A DNA stretch of 64,000 nt from contig BPHE01000012.1 of assembly GCA_026003395.1 (NCBI GenBank), forward strand, positions 1-64,000. Reading direction: 5' to 3'. This DNA is from Vicingaceae bacterium (GTDB lineage: Bacteria; Bacteroidota; Bacteroidia; Flavobacteriales_E; Vicingaceae). The notes beneath the pieces are model-generated. The model was given only the letters and a program-made list of their open reading frames with translations, was not told the DNA's origin and made no database searches. Position numbers and translations under genes: made by a program. Shown piece after piece: positions 17 to 45,097 of the stretch (position 1 is its first letter; each line of letters starts with the position of its first letter).

Positions 17-610
17 AACCACAGAAGACATAGAGAGACACGGAGGTTTTCACGGAGATTTTTTGACTTTGAAAATTTCTGATTGTTTTTTGCTTTACTC
101 AATTTCTTAAATTATTGATTTTAAAGCATTCTCCTTTTTCATCGACACATATTTGCATCAAAATGTAATTGCCGAGGTTTTGTAAACCTCACCCCGCCCT
201 TATGGTCCCCCTCTCCTTCTTAAGGAGAGGGGCTTGGGGAGAGGTCTTTTTTTCTCTTCTCCATTGCTAAAATCCTTGTATTCCTGGCATTCTACGTATC
301 TATAATCCGTATTTATACCAAAATCCATTTGTCGGGGATTTGAAAACCTCACCCCGCCCTTATGGGCACCCCTCTCCTTACAAAGGAGAGGGGCTTGGGG
401 AGAGGTCTTTTTTTTACTTCACAATTCTTTAAATCATAGTTTTTACATCGTTTTGTGTTTCTATTGACACATAAAAGAATTGTGAATTTGTAGCAGACAA
501 GAGACTAGAAAAGCGAAACAGAAATCAAGAAACTGTAAATATTTGGAATAAAAGATAGAGAAAGATGTAATAGATGGAACAGAAATGGAAAAATATCATA
601 TAAAAAGAAA
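17..610 (+). repeat. Dispersed repeat element A with two tandem units
   Basis: No gene is visible here. A leader (about 17-183) starts with CACAGA/CACGGAG motifs and a TTTTTGACTTTGAAAA stretch. Two copies of a roughly 65-bp core follow (184-246 and 343-407), each starting AACCTCACCCCGCCC and ending GGGGAGAGGTC. A trailer then includes TTGTAGCAGACAAGAGACTA (from about 489) and TCAAGAAACTGTA. The same order occurs in reverse at 21236-22138 and forward at 43009-44495. Within the core, CCCCTCTCCTT pairs with AAGGAGAGGGG, GCCC pairs with GGGC, and the outer arms ACCTC-CCCC and GGGG-GAGGT can close a three-way junction. The element may begin before the window. Confidence 0.85.
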
Positions 611-2595: not shown

Positions 2596-3261
2596 TTGGA
2601 TAATCCTGACGACATTCATTGTCCGCATTTATTATCAACAACAGATGAATTTGAAAAGGCGTGGAATCAATCAGATATTAAAATGATGATTTTTGGAATT
2701 AGAACTAATACTTGGGGAATTAAGGATATTAGCAAAGATACAATAGAAGATTTAATGAATCTTTATGAAGAGTTTTATTTTGGAGGAGGTAATTGGAAAT
2801 ATGCCCAAACATTTTGGAATTATTTTTATTCTATTCAGGAATTATTAAAATGTCGCCTAAATAAAAAAGTAAGTGTAATATGGAATAATGTGTACAAGAT
2901 TGAGAATGCACCATGGGATATTGAAAATAAATATTTTAATGTTACTTTGGAAGAGGTTGAAATCTTTCGTCCAAATGTAATATTGCTTTTGGGGTTAGAT
3001 GCAAGGTATACTTTACTTTCAAATATTTTTGGACAAAGTAATCTCAAAGTGGACGATTATTGGGATGATGAGAAATCGCTCTATTCATTAAATATTGATA
3101 GTTTAAGTATAGAACCAAAAATAGAACCAAAAATAGAACCAAAAATAAAAAAATATTTAAAAAAAATAATTATTACATATCATCCAAATGCACGTGGAGA
3201 ATCTGGAATTAAAATGAAATATCTTATTGAACATCTTTCTAATGAACTTAAGAGTTTATAA
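2521..3261 (+). pseudogene. UDG-like superfamily protein, in-frame TAG at codon 20
   Basis: Reading from ATG 2521 gives 19 codons (MKTIKENLRN start), then TAG at 2578-2580, then the same frame continues to TAA at 3261. A TTG at 2596 could restart it, giving 221 residues. The remainder resembles a family of about 220-residue proteins related to uracil-DNA glycosylases: MIFGIRTNTWG near the N-terminus, VIWNNVYKI in the middle, PNVILLLGLDA, and YHPNARG near the C-terminus, like the HPS loop of UDGs. A 12-bp unit (ATAGAACCAAAA) is repeated three times around 3111-3146 and encodes IEPK repeats. The gene is very AT-rich and lies between two like-oriented IS copies, so it was probably carried in. 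Glycosylase activity is not shown by the sequence; the family link is from recognition only. Confidence 0.6.
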
Positions 3262-3344
3262 AACAAAATTATTGTATGCCTTAATAAAATGTTCATAGGC
3301 ATAATAAATAATAGAATTGTCGCGAAACAATGTTGGAAGTTTAA

Positions 3345-5088
3345 ACCCAAACTTTTCCATTTTTAGACAATACATATTTCCAATTTTTCTAATATCTCTT
3401 TATATTTCTTTGGATATCCGGCTCTTTTCCACTCCTCTCCTATCTGTATACTCTGTATCCTACTCATCATCTCTATTATGTCCTTCGGACTGTGTTGGCT
3501 TTCCATCTTCTTTTCCTTCAACTTCCTCTGTATCCGGTACCAATACACCATCGCCAAATAATGCACAAACATCCATCCTTCCAATGTCTCTTTGTCCCGA
3601 ACATACATCCTGTCTGCTTCCAATACATTCTTAAACACATCATACATCTGCTCTATAGCATGCCGGCTCTTATACATCTCATATATCTTCTTCCCTTCAT
3701 CTTCCTCTACATTGGTAATAATAGCCAACGTCCCAAAACGATGCTGGATAGAATGATAATTTTCTATGTTGTATCCTTCGTATTGTTTCTCTATCCGTAG
3801 CAAATAATCCCGCACCTCTTCTGCCCGTAAATGCTCATCAAAAAACACATATATCCATCGGTTATCTTTTTTATACCGGTAATACCATAGGGGTCGATCC
3901 TGATAAATAAAAAAACCTGTCCATTCCCGTTTGTCGGATTGTCTTAGCCGGTCTTCTTCTATCAGCGACGAGTCCCGCTTCAATGGCATCACATAATGCA
4001 ATCCCTCCTCTTCCAGATACTTCCGGTTCTCTTCTGAATTAAATCCTTTGTCGCCTATCACCACACATTGTTTTACGCCGCTTTCTGCAATGGCATTTTT
4101 CAGTGTCTTTACATCGCTGATGTCTCCGCTTAACACCCGGTAATACAATGGCATCTGCTGCTCATACCCATACAAACATAGAAAGTTGACTTGCGGACGA
4201 AATTCCCATTGGGCGTTGTATCCTTTCTGATTCAGTCCTAATTGTTGGGATTGAGAAAAAACATGTGTAATGTCTATCAAAAGATGTTTAGAGGTATCGG
4301 TCATTAGTTTCTGAAAGAATGCTACGATTTTTTTTCGTTGTATGCCCACCTGTTCAAGCATCTGACTGCATTTTTGCGGAGTGATGGTGGGCATGGAAAG
4401 AAGGTGTTGGAGGTAAGTAAACGCATAGTGAAGGGGATAGTTTTTCATAGGCGCCTGGTGAAGCAAACGCATATAGGTGCAGAGCAAAAGATATTTCCAC
4501 TCGTTGGGGAAAGTGGATTGCAGGGCTTGAAGCAGGTCGGTGTTTTGGTGGAAAATCCAATGAGACAATCCATATTCATAGATGGAGATGTGTTGGAGGG
4601 CTTCCTGCAGTTTTCTGCGTTTGCTTTTGATGATACCGTTTTTTGTAACGCGGCCGATACAACCGAGGGTGATTTTAACGGGTCTTCCGCCTTTTTCTTT
4701 GGAGCGTTTGCTGGTGATTTGGTAGAGGTAGAGGTAACCGTTGATGTTACGGATTTCGGTTCCTTTTGTTTTGAATTTGAGGGCCCATTTAGGGATTTTG
4801 GAGGATTTTTTGGTTTTGGGTTTTTGTGGAGTTTTGGAACGGGAGGAGGATGGGGTTGATTTTTTTTGTTTTTTCATAGTATTGTTTATTTAGACAATAC
4901 GCAAAAATAAGGACAAAATAAAGGAAACGGGATAATTTTAAGAAAAAAATATCAACAGTATGATGTGGAAAACAGGTGGGATAAGGATAAGAGAAGGTAT
5001 TTACAAAAAATGAAGGGTAAAGTAGATAGAAATCAGGCAGAACAATACTTGCATAGGTTGTATGGCTTAAAATCGTAATAGTTTGGGT
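3345..5088 (-). mobile_element. Insertion sequence copy 2 (IS4 superfamily, IS1634-like)
   Basis: The element is 1744 bp, in the same orientation as copy 1. Its imperfect inverted repeats begin CCCAAACTTTT at 3346 and CCCAAACTATTACG on the minus strand from 5087. TTAA lies one base outside both ends (3341-3344 and 5089-5092). It carries an intact transposase. Together the two copies bracket 0.9 kb holding the UDG-like gene, so the block could move as a composite transposon; two independent insertions fit the data equally well because all four junctions carry TTAA. Confidence 0.9.
3363..4877 (-). CDS. IS4-superfamily DDE transposase (intact)
   Basis: This 504-residue protein would catalyse excision and insertion of the element. 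The N-terminus (1-35) is rich in Lys, Ser, Pro and Thr, as expected for a DNA-binding tail. The catalytic core shows D202 (LLIDITH), D276 (VVIGDKGF) and the YREK signature with Y402, R405, E409 and K416, so the catalytic glutamate is E409. The long beta-strand insertion before the glutamate is typical of IS4-type enzymes. The ATG at 4877 lies just inside the element end. IS1634 and ISPepr1-type transposases are the nearest relatives I recognise; the exact subgroup would need an ISfinder comparison. It could also act on the frameshifted copy 1. Confidence 0.9.
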   Translation of the reverse strand: MKKQKKSTPSSSRSKTPQKPKTKKSSKIPKWALKFKTKGTEIRNINGYLYLYQITSKRSKEKGGRPVKITLGCIGRVTKNGIIKSKRRKLQEALQHISIYEYGLSHWIFHQNTDLLQALQSTFPNEWKYLLLCTYMRLLHQAPMKNYPLHYAFTYLQHLLSMPTITPQKCSQMLEQVGIQRKKIVAFFQKLMTDTSKHLLIDITHVFSQSQQLGLNQKGYNAQWEFRPQVNFLCLYGYEQQMPLYYRVLSGDISDVKTLKNAIAESGVKQCVVIGDKGFNSEENRKYLEEEGLHYVMPLKRDSSLIEEDRLRQSDKREWTGFFIYQDRPLWYYRYKKDNRWIYVFFDEHLRAEEVRDYLLRIEKQYEGYNIENYHSIQHRFGTLAIITNVEEDEGKKIYEMYKSRHAIEQMYDVFKNVLEADRMYVRDKETLEGWMFVHYLAMVYWYRIQRKLKEKKMESQHSPKDIIEMMSRIQSIQIGEEWKRAGYPKKYKEILEKLEICIV

Positions 5089-21228: not shown

Positions 21229-22138
21229 AATTTCACCACGGAAAGCACAGAGAATCACAGAGAAAATAATATGACAATTTTCTATTTCTATTCCATCAAT
21301 TACACCTTTCTCCATCTTTTATTCAAAATGTTTACAATTTCTTGATTTCTGTTTCGCTTTTCTAGTCTCTTGTCTGCTACAAATTCACAATTCTTATATG
21401 TGTCAATGAAAATGCACAACGACGCAAAAACTATGTTTTAAAGAATTGAGAAGTGAAAAAAAAGACCTCTCCCCAAACCCCTCTCCTTTGTAAGGAGAGG
21501 GGTGCCCATAAGGGCGGGATGAGGTTTTCAATTCCCCGGCAATTACATTTTGGTGCAATTACGAATTTTAGAAACGTAAAATGCCCGTAGGCAAGGATTT
21601 TAGCAAATGAGAAGTTAAGACCTCTCCCCCAGCCCCTCTCCTTTGTAAGGAGAGGGGTGCCCATAAGGGCGGGGTGAGGTTTTCAAATCCCCAGAAATTA
21701 CACTTTGGTGCAATTACGAATTATATAAACACAAAATGCCAGTAGCCAAGAATCTTAACTTTTGAGAAGTGAAAAAAGACCTCTCCCCAAGCCCCTCTCC
21801 TTTGTAAGGAGAGGGGTGCCCATAAGGGCGGGGTGAGGTTTTCAAATCCCCAGAAATTACACTTTGGTGCAATTACGAATTATATAAACACAAAATGCCA
21901 GTAGCCAAGAATCTTAACTTTTGAGAAGTGAAAAAAGACCTCTCCCCAAGCCCCTCTCCTTTGTAAGGAGAGGGGTGCCCATAAGGGCGGGGTGAGGTTT
22001 TCTCTCGGCAAACAGATTTTGGTGCAAATATGTGTCAATAAAAACGCAAAACACTTTAAAATCAACGATTTAAGAAATTGTCAAAGTCAAGAAACCCTCC
22101 GTAAAAATCTCCGTGCTTCTCTGTGTCCTCTGTAATTT
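21229..22138 (-). repeat. Dispersed repeat element B with four tandem units
   Basis: The stretch 21183-22260 has no gene. Read on the minus strand it has the same order as elements A and C: leader (22138 to 22003) with CACAGAG/CACGGAG motifs, four cores (22002-21937, 21843-21778, 21684-21619, 21529-21464), then the trailer with TTGTAGCAGACAAGAGACTA. The trailer ends at about 21229-21265 in an inverted CACGGA/CACAGAG block. Two adjacent units, 21685-21843 and 21844-22002, are perfect 159-bp duplicates. The leader lacks about 28 bp present in A and C. Short reading frames over the array, with TKERG-like peptides, are products of the repeat and not genes. Confidence 0.88.
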
Positions 22139-42477: not shown

Positions 42478-42936
42478 ATGAGAAAAGTACTTTTATCTGC
42501 TTTTTTTCTGGGCATATTAAGTTTTGAAATGATTGCCCAAAATGTGGAATACAAAGTAGTGACAATTGTTGAATCGATTGTACCTATGGGTTTGGGGCGG
42601 TCAAGAATGATAGAAGCAACCGACCAATTGGATGTAAATCAATTCACTACAGAAAGAAATGACGGAAAAGACACTAAAATGGGAGATGTTGATAGAAAGG
42701 ATTTGAAAATCGATAGGTTTAAGGAAACGAAGTTGCTGAATTTCTACAGTGGGGTTGGAATTAATTTTCAAAACATTGCTTCGAATGATGCATTGATTTC
42801 TTCAAAAATCAATGATTTGGCTTCTCAAGGTTGGGAGCTTGTATTTGTGACCAGTGGTGTGGAGGCTGATGCAGGGAAAGACGACGGAAATGGGATATTT
42901 ATAACAAGATTATATTTTAAGCGTTCGAGACAATAA
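42478..42936 (+). CDS. Small secreted DUF4177-like protein
   Basis: This 152-residue protein has a signal peptide (MRKVLLSAFF, cleavage near MIAQ, about residue 20). The core, with VEYKVVTIVES at the start and INDLASQGWELVFVTSG plus FITRLYFKR at the end, looks like DUF4177, a small domain whose signature is the QGWELV stretch. A charged linker lies between. Function is unknown. It ends 26 bp before a strong terminator. Confidence 0.65.
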   Translation: MRKVLLSAFFLGILSFEMIAQNVEYKVVTIVESIVPMGLGRSRMIEATDQLDVNQFTTERNDGKDTKMGDVDRKDLKIDRFKETKLLNFYSGVGINFQNIASNDALISSKINDLASQGWELVFVTSGVEADAGKDDGNGIFITRLYFKRSRQ

Positions 42937-42964
42937 GAATGTCCTTTTGCTTTGATAGAGAGAA

Positions 42965-42988
42965 AACCGCCTCAGGGCGGTTTTTTTG
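42965..42988 (+). terminator. Rho-independent terminator
   Basis: AACCGCC (42965-42971) pairs with GGCGGTT (42976-42982) around TCAG, followed by a run of T. It ends the small secreted protein's transcript and precedes the repeat array. Confidence 0.8.
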
Positions 42989-43008
42989 TGCCTTAGCCGA
43001 TATTTTTC

Positions 43009-44495
43009 AAAACCACTGATGACAGAGAGATACACGGAGGATTACACGGAGAGTTTTTGACTTTGAAAACTTCTGATTGTTTTTGATTTTCTCAATTTCT
43101 TAAATCATCGATTTTAAAGTGTCCTGCCTTTTCATCGGCCCATATTTGTACCAAAATGTAATTGTCGGGATTTGAAAACCTCACCCCGCCCTTATGGGCA
43201 CCCCTCTCCTTGAGAAGGAGAGGGGCTTGGGGAGAGGTCTTTTTTTCTCTTCTCAATTGATAAAATTCTTGCCTACTGGCATTTTGCGTTTCTATAATTC
43301 GTAATTGCACCAAAATCTGTTTGCCAAGGATTTGAAAACCTCACCCCGCCCTTGTGGGCACCCCTCTCCTTTGTAAGGAGAGGGGTTTGGGGAGAGGTCT
43401 TAACTTCTCATTTGCTAAAATCCTTGCCTACGGGCATTTTACGTTTCTAAATTCGTAATTGCACCAAAATCTGTTTGCCAAGGATTTGAAAACCTCACCC
43501 CGCCCTTGGGGCACCCCTCTCCTTACGAAGGAGAGGGGCTTGGGGAGAGGTCTTTTTTTCTCTTCTCAATTGATAAAATTCTTGACTACGGGCATTTTGC
43601 GTTTCTTTAATTTGTATTTGCACCAAAATCTATTTGCCGAGGATTTGAAACCTCACCCCGCCCTTGCGGGAGCCCCTCTCCTTCGTAAGGAGAGGGGTTT
43701 GGGGAGAGGTCTTAACTTCTCATTTGCTAAAATCCTTGCCTACGGGCATTTTACGTTTCTAAATTCGTAATTGCACCAAAATCTATTTGCCGAGGATTTG
43801 AAACCTCACCCCGCCCTTGCGGGAGCCCCTCTCCTTCGTAAGGAGAGGGGTTTGGGGAGAGGTCTTAACTTCTCATTTGCTAAAATCCTTGCCTACGGGC
43901 ATTTTACGTTTCTAAATTCGTAATTGCACCAAAATCTATTTGCCAAGGATTTGAAAACCTCACCCCGCCCTTGTGGGCACCCCTCTCCTTCGTAAGGAGA
44001 GGGGTTTGGGGAGAGGTCTTAACTTCTCATTTGCTAAAATCCTTGCCTACGGGCATTTTACGTTTCTAAATTCGTAATTGCACCAAAATCTATTTGCCAA
44101 GGATTTGAAAACCTCACCCCGCCCTTGTGGGCACCCCTCTCCTTCGTAAGGAGAGGGGCATGGGGAGAGGTCTTTTTTTCTCTTCTCAATTGATAAAATT
44201 CTTGCCTACTGGCATTTTGCGTTTCTATAATTCGTAATTGCACCAAAATCTGTTTGCCAAGGATTTGAAAACCTCACCCCGCCCTTATGGGCACCCCTCT
44301 CCTTGAGAAGGAGAGGGGCTTGGGGAGAGGTCTTTTTCACTTCCCAATTCTTTAAATCATAGTTTTTACGTCGTTTTGCGTTTTTCTTGACACATATAAG
44401 AATTGTGCATTTGTAGCAGACAAGAGACTAGAAAAGCTAATCAGACATCAAGAAATTGTATTTTCTCTGTGTTTCTCGTACTCTCCGTGCTGAAA
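43009..44495 (+). repeat. Dispersed repeat element C with eight tandem units
   Basis: The stretch 42989-44603 holds no gene. A leader (43009-43173) with CACGGAG and TTTTTGACTTTGAAAA is followed by eight cores: 43174-43239, 43334-43399, 43488-43552, 43647-43711, 43800-43864, 43953-44018, 44107-44172 and 44267-44332. The spacing is 153-160 bp. Sequences between cores are homologous and fall into two kinds: one begins TTAACTTCTCATTTGCTAAA, the other TTTTTTTCTCTTCTCAATTG. The trailer (44333-about 44495) repeats the TTGTAGCAGACAAGAGACTA motif and ends in CTCTGTG/CTCCGTG. Stem sequences are constant while the hairpin loops vary (TGTA, CGTA, GAGA, ACG). Short frames with TKERG-like peptides are repeat products. 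Confidence 0.9.
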
Positions 44496-44504
44496 TTTCT
44501 TTTT

Positions 44505-44575
44505 CAAAACCACAGAGGACACAGAAATTCACGGAGTTTTTCACAAAAAGTTTTTCTTTTCTGTGCTTCTTCGTA
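44505..44575 (+). repeat. Additional CACAGAG/CACGGAG inverted repeat
   Basis: AACCACAGAGGACACAGAAA and TTCACGGAG are followed by TTCTGTGCTTCTTCG, forming a small inverted block beyond element C. It matches the outer ends of the repeat elements and could be the remains of another copy. Confidence 0.5.
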
Positions 44576-44603
44576 GTATATATAAGATTTACATAAAAAT
44601 AGT

Positions 44604-44611
44604 TACTTTTG
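44604..44611 (+). promoter_or_regulatory. -7 box of the RidA-family gene
   Basis: TACTTTTG matches TAnnTTTG, 63 bp before the ATG at 44675. No clear -33 TTG is seen. Confidence 0.4.
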
Positions 44612-44674
44612 CGAGGCGGCTTAAAATCATATAGAATTTTATTTTTCTTCAATATTTACATATAAGCAATCATT

Positions 44675-45097
44675 ATGGAAAACAAAAAAAGTATTTTTTC
44701 CGATAAAGCGCCCGAACCGGTGGGTTTGTATCCGCACGCCAGACGTCTGGGAAATTTATTGTTTTTGTCAGGTGTTGGTCCTCGGGTGAAAGGAAGTAAA
44801 GACATCCCCGGTGTAACAATTGACGAAAACGGCAATGTAATTTCTTACGACATTGAAGTGCAATGCCGCAGTGTTTTCGAAAACGTTCGTACCATTCTTG
44901 AAGCATCGGGATCATCATGGGATAAGATCATTGATGTGACTGTTTTTTTGACTAATATGAAAAAAGATTTTCCTGTATATAACCGTCTTTGGGCCGAATA
45001 TTTTAAAGAAAACCCTCCATGCCGTACCACCATTGAGGTGAATGCATTACCCACTCCCATTGCCATAGAATTGAAAGTCATTGCTTACATTGACTGA
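44675..45097 (+). CDS. RidA-family deaminase
   Basis: This 140-residue protein is of the RidA/YjgF family, trimeric enzymes that hydrolyse reactive enamines and imines. It shows PVGLYPHARRLGNLLFLSG at the N-terminus, VQCRSVFENVRTILE, DVTVFLTNM, and the catalytic arginine region CRTTIEVNALP. The PHARR..LFLSGVGPR pattern and length resemble 2-aminomuconate deaminase of the kynurenine pathway more than generic RidA. No other kynurenine-pathway gene is adjacent, so that specialised role is only a possibility. Confidence 0.82.
   Translation: MENKKSIFSDKAPEPVGLYPHARRLGNLLFLSGVGPRVKGSKDIPGVTIDENGNVISYDIEVQCRSVFENVRTILEASGSSWDKIIDVTVFLTNMKKDFPVYNRLWAEYFKENPPCRTTIEVNALPTPIAIELKVIAYID

Follow-up and report, generated by a model that had tools for sequence, protein, structure and literature searches.

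A palindromic repeat of predicted BoxC-type fold, arrayed in tandem in a Vicingaceae genome

Arrays of the repeat and their IS1634-like arms

The window analyzed here, a stretch of 64,000 nucleotides at the start of a Vicingaceae contig, contains three arrays of a short palindromic core, each lying in an intergenic region and, in part, bordered by sequences that resemble the ends of an insertion sequence. The features of the arrays are as follows.

61 to 79, forward strand: first array, left end, with an IS1634-type terminal repeat (three mismatches)
186 to 406, forward strand: array of two cores; a paralogue elsewhere has near-identical arms and one core
21465 to 21999, reverse strand: array of four cores between convergent genes for a tRNA m1G methyltransferase and an M4 peptidase
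22074 to 22092, reverse strand: 21.5-kb array, left end, with an IS1634-type terminal repeat (one mismatch)
43005 to 43177, forward strand: left arm of the eight-core array, common to other arrays, part of it resembling the IS1634 left end
43178 to 44332, forward strand: array of eight cores with a period of 153 to 160 bp
44333 to 44460, forward strand: right arm of the eight-core array, common to other arrays; a full-length version elsewhere matches the IS1634 3' end

The initial annotation had counted 14 copies in the window, and all of them carry the core. The home genome (2.54 Mb in 33 contigs) holds 75 core copies at 21 array places, all intergenic; the arrays comprise 1 to 12 units, with a period of approximately 153 to 160 bp within most of them. 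Array length changes, as is seen at paralogous places that have near-identical arms and differ in unit number. In one such pair, the arms are identical at 180/180 and 297/300 positions and enclose two units versus one, and in another they are identical at 317/330 and 200/200 positions and enclose three units versus one. In an array of 10 copies (L035), a run of 100 N at positions 3211 to 3310 lies between near-identical halves (684 identities, 15 mismatches, and 5 gaps); therefore, the array size at that place is unreliable. Two other arrays (L031, 2382 to 2596 and 7649 to 7864) are located about 5.3 kb apart, have near-identical flanks, and probably reflect a tandem duplication.

Four copies of an IS1634-family transposase gene are present in the home genome (a 557-aa ORF that scores 369 bits against NF033559, cut-off 100). 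The right arm of the arrays has 73% identity, over approximately 170 bp, to the 3' end of these four IS1634 elements; the left arms resemble the IS1634 left end above 100 shuffles in 11 of the 21 arrays; and an IS1634 terminal repeat with no more than three mismatches is found at the left end of two of the three window arrays. When the spacers and right arms were compared with the IS1634 left end, few scored above shuffles, so that similarity to this end is proposed for the left arms only. Based on the transposase, the right-arm match, the left arms, and the terminal repeats, the best reading of the arrays is that they represent relics of nonautonomous IS1634 derivatives, in which the core and some 93 bp would have turned tandem to give a unit of about 155 bp.

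The same data could be taken to mean that the repeat is merely an IS1634-derived MITE with an internal minisatellite and that its fold is incidental. The right-arm identity, the terminal repeats, and the left arms that beat shuffles are all in keeping with that proposal; however, in other genomes, including those of the same family, where it is 66 nt long, the core occurs by itself between unrelated flanks, and its fold is kept across phyla. The proposal is insufficient as a full account, and in that capacity we consider it quite unlikely, but it is a valid account of how the arrays arose locally. That the IS1634 similarity rises above shuffles in just 11 of the 21 left arms also weighs against the explanation that we prefer, which is set out below.

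Several other features were observed around these elements. Two of the IS1634-family copies (L079 on G000:C2 and L077 on G000:C21) have exact flanking direct repeats of 741 and 40 bp, respectively; no such repeats were seen at the other two copies. Direct repeats of 8 to 514 bp are given for the IS1634 family in a review (PMC2266710). A second repeat, CCACAGAGGACACAGAG...CACGGAG, flanks arrays on the outside (positions 6 to 90, 43000 to 43084, and 44497 to 44581 of the window), has inverted partners near the right ends, and is also present at places without an array. Two related DDE transposase genes, located about 2.6 kb apart, occupy positions 727 to 2031 and 3363 to 4877, and the second of these scores 179 bits with the IS1634 model.

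Fold of the core and its conservation

The repeat core described here occupies positions 43178 to 43238 of the forward strand and consists of five parts.

43178 to 43187, forward strand: 5' arm ACCTCACCCC, whose complement is the predicted third strand of a bottom-strand triplex
43188 to 43199, forward strand: short hairpin GCCC-TTAT-GGGC, situated within the 5'-side linker; other lineages retain the hairpin with different letters
43201 to 43225, forward strand: long hairpin CCCCTCTCCTT-GAG-AAGGAGAGGGG, with an 11-bp stem and a 3-nt loop
43226 to 43228, forward strand: 3-nt linker CTT between the purine strand and the third strand
43229 to 43238, forward strand: 3' arm GGGGAGAGGT, a mirror repeat of the purine strand of the hairpin and the predicted third strand; also an imperfect partner of the 5' arm

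The three-way fold drawn in the initial annotation was recovered, with predicted energies of -42.1 kcal/mol as RNA (z -5.5) and -24.1 kcal/mol as DNA (z -6.8); for this copy, none of 200 dinucleotide shuffles was as stable in either form, and the reverse strand folded equally well (-43.7 and -24.7). The near-constant stems and variable loops that had been described were also confirmed, except that the loops of the long hairpin are mostly 3 nt (GAG, TGT, ACG, CGT, ACA, and CTT in the window); one stem base had been counted in those given as 4 nt. The 11-bp stem of this hairpin includes TT/AA. Variation among copies also affects the 3-nt linker (CTT or TTT) and the two free bases in the short hairpin, and the G+C content of the 14 forward window cores ranges from 0.60 to 0.67.

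Fixed stems combined with variable loops had been read as a sign that structure is maintained, and here the outcome depends on which copies are compared. Within the home genome, none of the 24 pairs had changes on both sides among 58 distinct rows, and the covariation score was not above that of shuffles; the constancy of the stems therefore shows that the copies are young and not that an RNA has been selected. If one strand were selected as RNA, G.U would be expected to exceed A.C, but the two were equally frequent (17 versus 16 cells, with 6 of the 58 distinct rows, those with more than four broken pairs, omitted), so that maintenance in RNA is not supported in this genome. Across lineages, in contrast, 13 of the 24 pairs were compensated among 50 distinct rows, 97.0% of the cells were paired, and 82 compensated cells were counted, against a shuffled value of 15.4 and no more than 15 after sliding of the partners, an effect whose size is inflated by an alignment fitted to the structure, by several copies per genome, and by a few reverse-strand rows. 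Other families retain the layout with short hairpins such as GTCC..GGAC, GATTATC..GATAATC, and GCCACAC..GTGGC, with long hairpins that end in TAC/GTA or TTT/AAA, and with outer arms AACTC/GAGTT. Judged from these alignments, the structure of the core matters, and its fold is kept across distant lineages by compensatory change.

A structured RNA, either regulatory or a processed transcript, would account for a strong fold with compensatory changes across lineages, and the cross-lineage ratio of G.U to A.C, 13 to 3 in an alignment whose model itself favors G.U (44 distinct rows; eight reverse-strand, duplicate, or badly registered rows omitted), could point to RNA and to that extent counts against the explanation that we prefer. 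However, G.U and A.C are balanced in the home genome, both strands fold equally, copies lie inside coding genes in another genome (G051), and purine-motif triplexes are said, in the accessible text of PMC4666352, not to form in RNA. At gathering score, Rfam searches yielded only a tRNA elsewhere in the window and no match on the core at eight loci. We regard an RNA product as very unlikely. Assignment of the core to an Rfam family was rejected, since neither the gathering score nor the E-value gave a credible match.

A predicted third strand

The outer arms had been reported to pair with one mismatch. They do, but the mismatch is a systematic A/A (of the 67 own copies with a third-strand score of at least 7/9, 61 have A there), and it is accounted for by a feature absent from the initial annotation. 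The sequence GGGGAGAGG in the 3' arm is the mirror of the hairpin purine strand GGAGAGGGG, three bases downstream; the same order of hairpin, 3-nt gap, and mirror third strand is laid out for the BoxC/PIT/TM repeats in the accessible text of PMC4666352. We scored the triads by the rules that G lies on G.C and A or T lies on A.T (G.GC, A.AT, and T.AT) at the 119 of 132 places that could be parsed. All nine positions obeyed these rules in 56/69 own and 40/50 foreign copies, and eight or nine did so in 65/69 and 48/50; among shuffled tails, 9/9 was reached in 0.04% and at least 8 in 3.2%. A 3-nt linker was present in 52/67 own and 29/49 foreign copies. Furthermore, changes of the stem from one lineage to another are matched in the third strand: CCCCTCTCC occurs with GGGGTGAGG, CCCCTCTCT with GGGG(A/T)GAGT, CCCTTCTCC with GGG(A/T)TGAGG, and CCCCCTCCT with GGGGGTGGT.

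Mispairs between the outer arms were counted at 62 own and 47 other places, with four places that lack a 5' arm set aside and unparsed rows omitted. With rows restricted to those having at least 8/9 triplex matches and at least 7/9 paired positions, a filter that favors the triplex pattern, 21 of the 30 mispairs in other genomes fell at A.T positions of the stem, which make up two to four of the nine positions in those stems, and 19 of the 21 were A/A or T/T; the A/A mispair accounted for 58 cells among the 62 own copies. Such mispairs are permitted by the triplex rules and not by base pairing, and they therefore explain the mismatch that a plain junction leaves open.

If no triplex were involved and the core were simply a DNA cruciform or three-way junction, copying mechanisms would keep the palindrome, and its arms would matter as base pairs only. 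The proportion of paired cells and the 13 compensated pairs across lineages are consistent with this possibility, and among the matches listed from 101 assemblies (see below), the outer arm is closed by pairing at 8/8 in 27, near the 32 in which it is closed by the triplex rule. It leaves unexplained both the A/A mispair of the own copies and the pileup of mispairs at A.T positions elsewhere, and the letters are more conserved than pairing requires. On balance, we find it doubtful, though deserving of real weight. Because the 3' arm follows the rules of an intrastrand DNA triplex, the plain three-way junction is, on these sequence patterns, not the best description of the core. On the bottom strand, the role of third strand is predicted for GGGGTGAGG, the complement of the 5' arm. 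The element would thus be double-sided, with the short hairpin in the bottom-strand linker; because each side carries a third strand, the element comes close to a full palindrome, and a drawing as a three-way junction is possible too. Since the 3' arm also pairs with the 5' arm in many copies, triplex and junction are inseparable copy by copy. We predict that the repeat is a Bacteroidota version of the widespread bacterial BoxC-type repeat, a strand of which can fold back on itself into either a triple helix or a cross with three arms.

Distribution, spread, and relation to known repeats

A covariance model of the core had matches in 12 of 60 genomes, and a sequence-only model had matches in 77 of 395 Bacteroidota genomes, with the home genome included in both counts. 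An exact pattern that contained both arms and left the linker sequence free was found in at least 118 stretches, in a sample that was neither complete nor even. The matches listed come from at least 101 assemblies in approximately 18 phylum-level groups, as labeled from record titles, mainly Chloroflexota (at least 38), Cyanobacteria (at least 18), and Bacteroidota (at least 17). Among these listed matches, 75 assemblies have a linker of 9 nt or longer, and in 22 of them this linker forms a hairpin of at least five pairs (500 shuffles: mean, 1.4; maximum, 6). A second third strand occurs in 32 of the 101 assemblies (shuffles: mean, 0.6; maximum, 3). Two cyanobacterial cores (L122 and L087) score 71.4 and 70.0 bits, compared with 34.8 to 43.9 bits for the home family, and are thus nearer to the window core; this may point to horizontal spread or to repeated origin. 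A plasmid search found the core in one Brasilonema record, and a phage search gave no core match. A tandem core cluster was observed in a distant Bacteroidota genome (L213, G446:C54, 923 to 1894), where short hairpins compensate within one genome and a TCATGCTGAGCGAAGCGAAGCAT-type repeat precedes at least one core.

One copy (G024 C10) has no counterpart at the orthologous place of three congeners (G029, G004, and G017); in alignments with the empty site in G029 and G004, about 105 bp including the core is missing, the ends being approximate. Direct repeats across the core (at least 35 bits) were found at 8 of 108 cores and 2 of 149 controls, mostly as tandem copies, and on these counts they were rejected as a general insertion signature. 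Among 41 entries tested, two of them duplicates, in-frame copies were confined to two genomes, with none in the home genome: G051 has them in a ctaA-like gene (L050), in aroB (L263), in two type IX sorting domains (L264 and L265), and in an ORF without a family match (L262), and G043 has one in a gene for a SpoIIE-type phosphatase (L268). In six species of genus g31, to which G051 belongs (L263 and L277 to L282; six of seven genomes aligned, with L283 left out), the same loop of AroB holds differing inserts that are intact, shortened, decayed, or a different palindrome, with no clear insert in two species. The fold decays inside genes, which argues against selection on the fold there.

Dispersed palindromes would also be expected of a REP element moved by a Y1 (RAYT/TnpA-REP) transposase, and a Bacteroidetes TnpA subclass, 2.6, is credited with 'atypical secondary structures' in the accessible part of PMC6006769. 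However, there was no Y1_Tnp match in 5 of 22 core-carrying genomes, and no core was located within approximately 3 kb of 20 Y1 genes in core-carrying genomes or near the sole Y1 gene of the home genome; accordingly, none of these genes is a RAYT gene flanked by the repeat. Mobilization of this kind is highly improbable.

In the home genome, 12 of the 21 arrays are situated between convergent genes, compared with 3 of 18 window gaps, and a T-run follows many of the cores, as might be expected of bidirectional transcription terminators. Against such a role, no terminator-like site was found in positions 42900 to 44700, where shuffles had a mean of 3.0, T-runs are absent in many relatives, and PIT motifs showed no promoter or terminator activity according to the accessible text of PMC4666352. 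We think it improbable that the arrays act as terminators. Across bacteria, gene context obtained with a crude ORF caller showed no bias (7 convergent and 7 divergent among 80).

Taken as a whole, the explanation that we consider probable is that the element belongs to the G/C-rich intrastrand-triplex repeats of the BoxC/PIT/TM kind, is double-sided, is spread by its fold, and represents selfish or neutral DNA. Each strand would form the hairpin CCCCTCTCC...GGAGAGGGG, after which the purine-rich strand (GGGGAGAGG on top and GGGGTGAGG below) would fold back as the third strand. It can be envisioned that, during replication or repair, single-stranded DNA adopts this fold for a short time and that a stall or template switch caused by the fold leads to duplication and spread of the unit; the repeats of about 93 bp on both sides would then, in this genome, permit unequal recombination into arrays with a unit of about 155 bp. 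Such an element would be tolerated mainly between convergent genes, and no RNA product would be needed. An argument against this explanation is that, as described in the accessible text of PMC4666352, DMS footprinting supported no stable triplex in vivo, and no triplex was seen in duplex DNA.

A wider proposal, which we regard as speculative and rather unlikely, is that one class of triplex-forming palindromes across many phyla constitutes a minimal mobile unit without a transposase of its own, with the fold as the copying engine that would place it in intergenic DNA, transposon remnants, and, in frame, housekeeping enzymes, and that the triplex forms in cells. If this were true, covariation of the three strands would be evolutionary evidence for a triplex in cells. 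The three-strand pattern across lineages, the orthologous empty sites, and the in-frame copies offer sequence-level tests of spreading and of the in vivo triplex, and the home genome, with its arrays of 1 to 12 units and its paralogues of differing number, is naturally suited to the study of repeat expansion.

Knowledge of BoxC-type repeats dates from the 1990s, and to our knowledge there is no known way in which they spread. The accessible text of PMC4666352 describes G/C-rich intrastrand triplex repeats of the BoxC/PIT/TM class in Escherichia coli and more than 260 genomes, with an E. coli BoxC-type example of the CCCTCTCCC-TGA-GGGAGAGGG-TTA-GGGTGAGGG type in a table, and reports triplex formation in vitro by BoxC-type oligonucleotides, as determined by CD and NMR. 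The class is delimited there by a stem of 6 to 15 bp, loops of 1 to 6 nt, triads with at most one mismatch, G/C richness, and repetition. The core studied here has a stem of 11 bp, a loop of 3 nt, and a top-strand linker of 3 nt; its triads match at 8 or 9 of 9 positions in the 65/69 own and 48/50 foreign parsed copies given above; and it is G/C-rich (0.60 to 0.67) and present in 75 copies. Both the core and the published repeats have a pyrimidine-purine hairpin and, beyond a 3-nt loop, a mirror third strand, have A or T at the same third-strand position, are dispersed, and are linked to variable regions. Unlike the repeats described in that text, the core has a third strand on both sides and a second hairpin in one linker, an 11-bp stem with TT/AA on top, a Bacteroidota host, tandem arrays beside IS1634-like arms, and in-frame copies in other genomes. 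The word Bacteroidetes does not appear in the main text of PMC4666352, the only paper on the motif found in a literature search for which most subscription papers were out of reach; within the same limits, no report of in-frame copies or of IS1634-bound arrays was found.

Like the core, GTAG/CGTC REPs (PMC3733652, accessible text) are short, dispersed palindromes that often lie between genes in convergent or unidirectional orientation, and some of them form clusters together with flanking DNA; they differ in their tetranucleotide tag and, for GTAG, in a RAYT link, and no RAYT link was seen here. The BrickBuilt MITE of Porphyromonas gingivalis (PMC4596501) likewise combines MITE-like arms around an internal tandem repeat with an intergenic location, stem-loops, and a Bacteroidota host, but it has a 23-nt repeat and IS5-type ends, and no such core is described in the accessible part of that paper. 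Rickettsia palindromic elements, as presented in the accessible part of a review (PMC10969869), are palindromes of about 150 bp found in frame in housekeeping genes of Rickettsia, whereas those reported here are triplex-type palindromes of about 50 to 70 bp. In-frame insertion of this sort is seen in G051 and G043 and not in the home genome, and the AroB loop, with its varied palindromic inserts among congeners, resembles the Rickettsia palindromic elements.
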